This document shows, piece after piece, positions 21,342 through 23,159 of a stretch of 24,900 nt of DNA. The translations under genes were made by a program, and so were the position numbers. The notes beneath the pieces are model-generated. The model had not been told where the DNA came from. It saw only the letters and a list, made by a program, of their open reading frames with translations, and ran no database searches. Source of the stretch: a virus; IMG/VR virus record IMGVR_UViG_3300037584_000080, positions 1 to 24,900 of that record; one strand, written 5' to 3'. Within the stretch, counting starts at the first letter, position 1. Each line of letters opens with the position of its first letter.

Positions 21342-21504
21342 CCAACTTTCCTCGTAGCTCTTTGGCTTTGTTACGCATTTCCATATAGACCTCGAGTCTG
21401 CCTCGAGTCTTCTCCGCCTCACGATATAAGCCTGAGTCCATGAGTAGTGTCAACTCATCGTCAAGAATGCGGATGATTCTGTCCATCGACTTTGTGTCAC
21501 TCAT
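21331..21504 (-). CDS. Small helical protein (57 aa)
   Basis: Read directly from the minus strand: 57 residues, MSDTKSMDRIIRILDDELTL to RNKAKELRGKLDDG. The ATG overlaps the stop of the 165-aa gene (ATGA), and its own stop lies 11 bp inside the next gene, so it fills what would otherwise be the only uncovered stretch in this part of the operon. It is highly charged and almost entirely helical (LLMDSGLYREAEKTRGRLEV), possibly a coiled coil. No family recognised. Support is from junction geometry and composition. Confidence 0.65.
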   Translation of the reverse strand: MSDTKSMDRIIRILDDELTLLMDSGLYREAEKTRGRLEVYMEMRNKAKELRGKLDDG

Positions 21505-21998
21505 GCTACGTCAGCCTCTTTGTCATCACGCAGCATACGAACCATCTCTTCGATGTAAGCCACGTCCAGACCTATGTTCTCAGTGCAGCCACGGAAGCGG
21601 TTGAGCCATGCCGCCAGCGACACACCTGCCTGCCTCCGCAACTCAGCCTGAGACTCTTCGTTTTCTGGATCGAACGGCTCGTAGCCGCCACCCTCTTTGC
21701 GCTTGGCTACAGGCGAGATGTACGCAGGGTATTCAATCGTCAACACCTTGTCGCTCTGCTTGATATCTGTCTGTTCGACCACGATCCTAAGACCGCTTGC
21801 CATGCGCCGTGCCATGTCGATACGCCACTGCCTAGCCGCCGTTGCATCATCGATGCCATAGAAGGCATCATACATTTCATGCTCCGGTTGACCAGACAGC
21901 CAGTCAACGAACTCATCCGCTTTGAACATGTTAAATCCTGTTACCTGTAGGTACTCATCGATGATTCTTTGTTTAGTCTTCCTTGCAAAATTACTCAT
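21501..21998 (-). CDS. Conserved phage protein of unknown function (165 aa)
   Basis: 165 residues; ATG with AAGGAG about 8 bp upstream. Landmarks are IIDEYLQVTGFNMFKADEFV, PEHEMYDAFYGIDDATAARQ and RIDMARRMASGLRI, which I recognise as a conserved but unassigned phage family. The first 70 residues look helical, possibly a winged-helix-like DNA-binding unit (inference). Residues about 70-115 are mixed (KVLTIEYPAYISPVAKRKEG), and the C-terminus is helical and acidic. It is the first gene after the period-5 tract, so its mRNA leader would carry that G-rich repeat. No catalytic motif seen. Confidence 0.75.
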   Translation of the reverse strand: MSNFARKTKQRIIDEYLQVTGFNMFKADEFVDWLSGQPEHEMYDAFYGIDDATAARQWRIDMARRMASGLRIVVEQTDIKQSDKVLTIEYPAYISPVAKRKEGGGYEPFDPENEESQAELRRQAGVSLAAWLNRFRGCTENIGLDVAYIEEMVRMLRDDKEADVA

Positions 21999-22027
21999 TA
22001 CTTTCTCCTTGTTAAAAATTTACTTGA

Positions 22028-22319
22028 CCGCCTTGCCGCTCCGCGCCTTACCAAGCCACGTCAAGCCATGCCCCAACCGCCTGACCTCGCCCCAACTTAC
22101 CTTGCCCCAACGCACCTGTCCTGACCACAACCGCCTTGCCAAGCCTCACCGCATCACGCCATACAAAAACAGACCCAACCCTGCCAAAACCGCCATCCCT
22201 GACCCGAACCGACCATACCCGAACCTACCATAACCCAACCGCCGTAACCCGCCGCGCCTCGCCATTCCGAAACTTACCTCGCCACACCATATCTCACCGC
22301 ACCATAACCGCCACAACCC
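22028..22319. repeat. Degenerate 5-bp periodic C/G tract (non-coding)
   Basis: About 290 bp between two minus-strand genes. On plus, CC dinucleotides recur every 5 bases with three variable bases between (GG-N3 on minus, the transcribed sense). In phase blocks at 22031-22071, 22080-22125, 22134-22184, 22193-22218 and 22242-22317, 40 of 52 five-base slots are CC and the other 12 hold one C. The phase shifts by minus one base at each block boundary. No repeat unit is copied verbatim. Frames here are open only because of this composition; they lack ribosome sites and family-like sequence. The GG-N3 spacing on the G-rich strand allows two-layer G-quadruplexes. Function unknown. Confidence 0.85.
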
Positions 22320-22335
22320 ACGACAGGGATATGCT

Positions 22336-22362
22336 GCAACGCACACGCTCGATGTGCGTTGC
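22336..22362 (-). promoter_or_regulatory. Perfect 10-bp inverted repeat, hairpin
   Basis: GCAACGCACA (22336-22345) and TGTGCGTTGC (22353-22362) are perfectly complementary around a 7-base loop. In minus-strand RNA the hairpin starts 14 bases after the stop of the RAMP-like gene and ends 17 bases before the period-5 tract. No T run follows on either strand, so it is not a standard intrinsic terminator. A protein operator, an mRNA 3'-end protector, or a boundary element of the tract are possible. Confidence 0.7.
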
Positions 22363-22376
22363 CCCATGTCTAATAA

Positions 22377-23159
22377 CTAAGCAGCCCTCCGCAACCGCTC
22401 TTCTTGTAAGAACTGCATAAGCTCTGCTGTTTCCTGATCCGCACATTCTGGATTGTCTCGAGCCGCTTCTTGAACCTCGCGACCTTCCTGCATCAAGATA
22501 TCCCAGGACTCCTGATGCTCTTCATCCATGCTGAATTCACCACCTGCACTGGCACCAGCTATCGTAAACGTACCAAACGAACCGCGACCCTTTTCCTGTC
22601 GGAAATCACCAAGACCAATCAACTGTCCTGCGTTCGCTACCAGTGCCGATATCGAAGCATTGCTGAATGTTGGCGTAACAAACCGGATCTCGATCTCAGC
22701 GCACCAGTCTGGCAGATAGGCTCGAGTCCGCATGTCAGGTGTCTTGTTCATGTCAGCCGAACGCACCACATCGATCTTCAGATAGGGCTTGCCCCATATA
22801 TTGATGTTGGTCTGCGGCAGGAAGATCAAACGATTGACGCTTGTCTTGTTTACACCTGCCGTTTCCAGTGCGGCTGTAGCCATCGCACCTTTCACACCTG
22901 CCGCCGGAAAGCACAACAGTGTCTTGCCCTTTGGTTGCGTATGAAAAGAGTCCACGAACTCCTGCTCTGGATTGTGCTTGATCTCTTTCTTTTCAGCCGC
23001 AGTCTTACGACCTGCACCGACAAGTAGATCACGCTTTGCTTTTGATGACATACTATTAAAGTACATCGGTGTTTGTCCGATCAAACGTAACTTGATCAAA
23101 CCTTGCTTCAATACCGGAATGTTGATTGATTCCGTAGTAGTCTTCTTTGATACTGCCAT
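22377..23159 (-). CDS. Phage protein with RAMP/Cas7-like signatures (260 aa)
   Basis: 260 residues; ATG with GAGGAG about 8 bp upstream. I recognise this as a conserved phage family without an assigned role. The order of elements resembles RAMP-superfamily RNA-binding proteins: an N-terminal strand (KLRLIGQTPMYFNSM, 23-37), then CFPAAGVKGAMATAALE (83-99), similar to the P-G-S-S-hKG-hhR segment of Csm3/Cmr4 proteins, and a C-terminal glycine-rich loop GLGDFRQEKGRGSFGTF (182-198). Residues 210-260 are an acidic/helical tail. No cas genes or CRISPR array accompany it. It directly precedes the hairpin and the period-5 tract. The RAMP comparison is by eye only; a different phage-specific fold is possible. 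Confidence 0.75.
   Translation of the reverse strand: MAVSKKTTTESINIPVLKQGLIKLRLIGQTPMYFNSMSSKAKRDLLVGAGRKTAAEKKEIKHNPEQEFVDSFHTQPKGKTLLCFPAAGVKGAMATAALETAGVNKTSVNRLIFLPQTNINIWGKPYLKIDVVRSADMNKTPDMRTRAYLPDWCAEIEIRFVTPTFSNASISALVANAGQLIGLGDFRQEKGRGSFGTFTIAGASAGGEFSMDEEHQESWDILMQEGREVQEAARDNPECADQETAELMQFLQEERLRRAA

Follow-up and report, generated by a model that had tools for sequence, protein, structure and literature searches.

What is preserved in an intergenic tract that keeps its rhythm and lets its letters change? The question is raised by a stretch of 24,900 nucleotides of viral DNA (the window; positions 1 to 24,900 of IMG/VR record IMGVR_UViG_3300037584_000080), in which paired C residues recur every five bases across positions 22028–22319. 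The tract lies in an intergenic gap of 378 bases (21999–22376) between genes for proteins of 260 and 165 aa, both on the minus strand. We consider it very probable that the tract serves a VIPR (Viral Interference Programmable Repeat) system as its guide array, with the blocks acting as guide RNAs (vrRNAs), their variable dinucleotides as addresses, and gene silencing as the outcome. The kind of system is already known; the targets decoded here and the marine, handle-less form of the array may be new.

The rhythm itself is real, as a first-pass annotation of this DNA had held. CC pairs occur 30 times at a lag of 5, compared with a mean of 14.3 and a maximum of 25 in 2000 dinucleotide shuffles (z 5.0). 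For single C residues at the same lag, z is 5.9 across positions 22028–22319, and for identity at lag 15 it is 7.4. The tract stands alone in this respect, with a lag-5 score of 6 or less in every 292-base window elsewhere in the 24,900 nt. The sense strand is the minus strand, which is the G-rich strand that had been put forward as functional, and its register is G-(G/T)-Y-N-N. Of 52 pentamers, 51 have G at position 1; position 2 holds 36 G and 13 T, position 3 holds 32 T and 16 C, and positions 4 and 5 are free. Hence two bases per unit vary rather than the three first described. The earlier count of 40 CC among 52 slots hinges on how boundaries are assigned; in the G-(G/T)-Y-N-N register about 36 slots are GG.

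The array (22033–22312, minus strand) is built of G-K-Y-N-N pentamers in five blocks, and GGCGGTY opens each block. Block 1 (22244–22312, minus strand; 69 nt) carries 13 variable dinucleotides (NN): AT GC GA AT GT GA AA TC AT GA GC GG AC. Block 2 (22195–22243, minus strand; 49 nt) carries nine, GG AT AG CG AT CG CG CA AT, and block 3 (22136–22194, minus strand; 59 nt) carries 11, TT AG TG CT TT AT GT GC GA TT AA. The block 3 string recurs in a relative (L010) on a differing block sequence. Block 4 (22082–22135, minus strand; 54 nt) has ten, GT CA CA GC GG AA AA GG GA CA, and block 5 (22033–22081, minus strand; 49 nt) has nine, GG AT TT GT TT AA GC GC AA. A terminal boundary motif, GGCGGTC (22026–22032, minus strand), follows, after which the leader of the next gene begins. 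Every block is 5n+4 bases long and opens with the 4-mer GGCG followed by GTY, and this fixed opening is the source of the constant phase step of −1 that had been noticed at the boundaries. Between the stop codon of the 260-aa gene and the array there is a predicted hairpin, GCAACGCACA...TGTGCGTTGC (22336–22362, minus strand), which is possibly a processing or stability element. A strong predicted hairpin of differing sequence occupies the same place in seven relatives (L005, L012, L042, L048, L065, L068 and L080). No promoter-like or terminator-like sites were found near the array, and an Rfam search of the array region gave no match.

Is the design conserved? Eighty relatives of the 260-aa gene were taken from IMG/VR, and the 74 with at least 300 bases downstream were scored. 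All 74 have a GG lag-5 tract downstream of the gene, which is the outcome of a search, proposed earlier, for tracts of the same spacing and different bases at the homologous locus. From one GGCGGT motif to the next, the gap is 4 modulo 5 in 332 of 398 cases and 3 modulo 5 in 50 more, as expected where one boundary motif has been lost. The clade consensus is G (95%), G or T (92%, with T at 27%), Y (94%), N, N. The content of the blocks is hypervariable (310 of 340 are distinct) and the frame is kept, such that the only common parts are GGCGGTY and the pentamer frame; the earlier impression that rhythm rather than sequence is retained was right. Hypervariability also makes it unsurprising that blastn of the tract against phage records found no match. 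To compare blocks, pairs were taken as homologous from one half of the block, and differences were counted in the other half. Homologous blocks differ by 7–18% at NN and 13–21% at positions 2–3, whereas unrelated blocks differ by ~73% and 43–46%, respectively. Relative to unrelated blocks, NN is thus the more conserved part. The same array design follows a remote homologue of the 260-aa protein in the Gordonia phages UmaThurman (28% identity) and Ecliptus (27%); there the boundaries read GGCAGG, and the phase again steps downward. In UmaThurman, gp40 (L109 6613–6936, NC_031249), annotated as a hypothetical protein, overlies the VIPR array and is probably not a gene. The closest relatives of the window phage DNA polymerase belong to an unclassified phage, a gammaproteobacterial phage and Pelagibacter phages (46%–52%).

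The first-pass annotation knew of no named element of this design. One was described in 2026: the available text of a preprint (bioRxiv 2026.04.26.720920, PMC13142463) presents VIPR as a phage-borne, CRISPR-like silencing system in which a RAMP protein works with vrRNAs that alternate GGY and NN. According to that text, GGY is the scaffold and NN pairs with DNA, one target base being skipped between pairs; the RNA consensus is “GGY/NN or a related consensus”, with 9–16 repeats per vrRNA (PMC13142463). The system was worked out in E. coli and Pseudomonas and has seven types, and in the type II system of phage SUSP1 the line-up of Vipr on RNA, DNA pairing and silencing are reported as demonstrated (PMC13142463, available text). 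The intergenic regions of SUSP1, used as a positive control, contain the same pentamers. Tandem pentamers adjoin the putative vipr gene of the window phage, with consensus GKYNN. The five blocks hold 13, 9, 11, 10 and 9 NN, and guides across the clade hold 7–15, most of them 9–13, to be set against the published 9–16.

The 260-aa gene (22377–23159, minus strand) is predicted from profiles to encode a RAMP-like Vipr protein with a G-loop, GLGDFRQEKGRGSFGTF. The profile of the family finds PDB 36pp, “SUSP1 Vipr protein”, the one relevant solved structure, at E 2.3e-6, and hhalign of the family against SUSP1 Vipr gives 95.9% (E 6e-9) over the C-terminal 63 columns, which include the G-loop. PHROG 4652 is common to the SUSP1, UmaThurman and window Vipr proteins. 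The best 50 Foldseek matches listed are all CRISPR RAMP-containing complexes, mostly Csm (best E 1.4e-3), for a poor AlphaFold model with a mean pLDDT of 49.6. Together, the sequence profiles and this weak model suggest a RAMP fold. The protein is likely the binder of the tract RNA, and an analogy drawn earlier with proteins that contact RNA at fixed spacing has proved the best of the initial ideas. The 165-aa gene (21501–21998, minus strand) lies directly downstream of the array and is a candidate VIPR accessory gene (vap, for vipr accessory protein). Its product matches PHROG 15946 weakly (E 9e-4); for the gene after the UmaThurman array the value is 2e-66. Pairwise hhalign of the 165-aa protein was not significant against either the Gordonia protein after the array or SUSP1 vap1, and a structure search with its model (pLDDT 62) found no match. 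Pfam and PADLOC searches of the two array-flanking genes also gave no match. PHROG 4652 and PHROG 15946 are both listed as of unknown function; the former contains SUSP1 Vipr, and the latter contains the gene after the UmaThurman array and, weakly, the gene after the array in the window clade.

Do the dinucleotides spell addresses? Each block was converted to a string of its NN letters, giving 239 distinct strings from 102 loci, some of which overlap. There are two lines of agreement with a code that skips one base, both from guides of the clade. First, the NN of 190 non-redundant guides correlate with the dinucleotides at codon positions 1–2 of these phages' ORFs (r 0.87), compared with −0.45 to 0.15 for the other five frames. 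This is what a code that skips the wobble base and is aimed mostly at coding sense would give. It is possible that a position-specific base bias unrelated to targets explains the correlation, since a model with independent frequencies at N1 and N2, itself fitted to these data, does slightly better.

Second, the most shared guide family fits tRNA-Arg genes. Its members begin TC AT CA CT AG TA, end variably and are present in 26 of 73 arrays. Under a 1-nt skip, at least 120 stretches of IMG/VR matched, and the matches listed correspond to antisense tRNA 5′ halves. ARAGORN found a tRNA-Arg gene, mostly with anticodon TCT, in 12 of the 12 matched loci examined, the guide site running from about −2 to about +24 of the gene. 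Matches to the tRNA set with at most one mismatch were given by the 1-nt skip only: none of 4640 shuffled guides had one, nor did the guides at skips of 0, 2 or 3. Since the tRNA set had been partly selected by the guide, the test was repeated on independently chosen E. coli tRNAs, where two guides match argQ-type genes at 18 of 18 letters and shuffles have at least four mismatches. In 257 Gb of prokaryote genome sequence, a variant ending GA TA AA matched no more than three times; where it fits the tRNA set perfectly, the gene is a tRNA-Arg (CCG, TCG). Between phages the scaffold letters differ and the NN of the tRNA-Arg guide stay.

The place of the tRNA-Arg guide varies from array to array, late in some and early in others (L005 4195, L012 ~4104, L068 ~3833 and 23 more), indicating that blocks move within arrays; exchange of blocks between arrays is likely. 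Another guide, GT GT CC GG GG GG (C/T)T GA (L031, L008, L009, L016 and L019), is one or two mismatches from antisense E. coli tRNA-Leu at skip 1 and is possibly a second tRNA guide. A third, GA GT GA GG AT GT AC AA, is common to six loci (L051, L052, L053, L055, L057 and L072) and may have a conserved target. A role of the tRNA guide in marking an attachment site is less likely: the site is on the tRNA 5′ half and integration cores usually overlap the 3′ end, as in CRP-3 (PMC6918029). Guides with a GT-GC-CC repeat in L225 and L254 have perfect skip-1 matches that were set aside as low-complexity repeats, off the wobble frame of the longest ORF. Against 1.5 Mb of the relatives' own DNA, the guides gave nothing above control except skip-3 matches in residual array sequence.

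Among the window's own guides, only block 1 gave near matches. It decodes as (I/M)A(D/E)(I/M)V(D/E)(K/N)S(I/M)(D/E)AGT, a GHKL ATPase motif. The nine NN at its centre have six exact matches in IMG/VR. Four of these fall within genes for GHKL ATPases (Pfam HATPase_c_3), in the reading frame that puts the skipped base at the wobble position. Of the four NN that flank this core, most also match at these sites, in full or in one letter. A full-length exact scan of IMG/VR with block 1 found no match; the block is probably aimed at a relative of the matched genes that is absent from databases. Exact IMG/VR scans with block 3, in full and as a 9-NN part, found no match. Three of the four GHKL proteins resemble MzaB (PADLOC). 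The neighbours searched lack Mza partners, so a link to the Mza defence system was dropped and the claim is limited to “GHKL ATPase”. Genes near the matches encode IMP dehydrogenase, adenylosuccinate synthetase, chaperonin, ClpP and amidase; in the phage contigs L319 (9439–11118) and L321 (688–2367), an MzaB-like GHKL ATPase lies near IMP dehydrogenase or adenylosuccinate synthetase genes.

How well do other explanations account for these observations? The one that fares best, and it is still very improbable, is that rhythm is all that matters, the tract being a structural element of DNA or RNA (two-layer G-quadruplexes or a TRAP-like leader). GG every five bases does meet the loose spacing of a G-quadruplex. 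Yet a G-quadruplex neither requires nor tolerates well a pyrimidine at position 3 in 94% of pentamers and T at position 2 in 27%, and this proposal of the first-pass annotation leaves the pyrimidine, the conservation of NN in homologous relative to unrelated blocks, the codon-position statistics and the matches to tRNA-Arg genes unexplained. Less probable again is a loading, annealing or origin site for nearby replication proteins, another early idea. The neighbours are indeed replication genes (DNA polymerase, primase, helicases), but cumulative GC skew turns at ~11–12 kb, where gene orientation flips, and not at 22 kb; the array follows vipr in a different genomic setting in the Gordonia phages; and hypervariable NN would be unexpected in an origin. 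A low-complexity coding repeat has next to no chance of being correct: the UmaThurman array is annotated as a coding sequence, but the tract's minus-strand ORFs of at least 50 aa are short, at 73 and 50 aa, and extend beyond it, block lengths that differ by five let no reading frame persist, and block sequences are nearly all different, so that the tract is not coding, as had been judged from the outset.

If the tract is a VIPR guide array, how might it work? Array, conservation, kinship with Vipr and agreement with the 1-nt-skip code are seen in the window phage and its clade. For expression, RNA processing, DNA binding and silencing, the published SUSP1 system serves as the model. On that model, vipr, the array and the gene after it are probably co-transcribed from the minus strand, and each 5n+4 block would be one vrRNA. 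GKY triplets would form the scaffold that Vipr (RAMP) subunits grip in succession, and NN would be the address; it would pair with double-stranded DNA, and between one dinucleotide and the next a single target base, usually the wobble base of a codon, would be passed over. A gene bound by the complex would be silenced. The GGCG four-mer, with its register shift of −1, would mark the block boundary, and GGCGGTY would mark the end of one vrRNA and the start of the next. A more tentative idea, to which we give somewhat less than an even chance, is that a standing vrRNA against tRNA-Arg is kept beside fast-changing guides, that VIPR silences a host or rival-phage tRNA and not only prophage regulators, and that, with tail-less vrRNAs, the 4-nt shift may set the ends of the Vipr filament.

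What are the implications of these findings? First, the gapped VIPR code gains support from uncultured marine phages, a clade remote from the E. coli and Pseudomonas systems in which the preprint worked it out. Second, the findings supply a large natural set of guides and show that guides can be decoded from the letters alone. Third, they point to two targets, tRNA-Arg genes and a GHKL ATPase gene, that are not mentioned in the available main text of PMC13142463.

Three known systems invite comparison. One is class 1 CRISPR-Cas, in which a Cas7/Csm3 RAMP backbone forms on crRNA. The likeness lies in RAMP fold neighbours and in a protein repeated along a guide RNA; the window differs in having a non-contiguous guide, and it contains neither the identical CRISPR repeats with contiguous spacers nor the cas genes of those systems. 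Another is that of the Gordonia phages UmaThurman and Ecliptus, with a PHROG 4652-type protein, a GGYNN array with −1 steps and then a small gene (PHROG 15946 in UmaThurman). They differ in having a GGCAGG rather than a GGCGGTY boundary and a Vipr that is 27–28% identical, and they carry no VIPR annotation. The SUSP1 system, as far as the available text describes it, shares a phage-encoded Vipr RAMP protein, an adjoining intergenic GGY/NN RNA and a 1-nt-skip code with which the guides tested here are consistent. Its four vrRNAs of ~100 nt are separate, each with a structured 3′ tail, whereas the window has tail-less blocks that abut head to tail; its GGCGGTY boundaries with a −1 phase step are unlike SUSP1, and by hhalign the gene adjoining the array is unrelated to SUSP1 vap1. 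The available text of PMC13142463 also names “staggered arrays with overlapping vrRNAs”, a description that fits blocks overlapping at GGCGGTY and shifting by −1, and this arrangement, matched here by name alone, may be the one found in the window.
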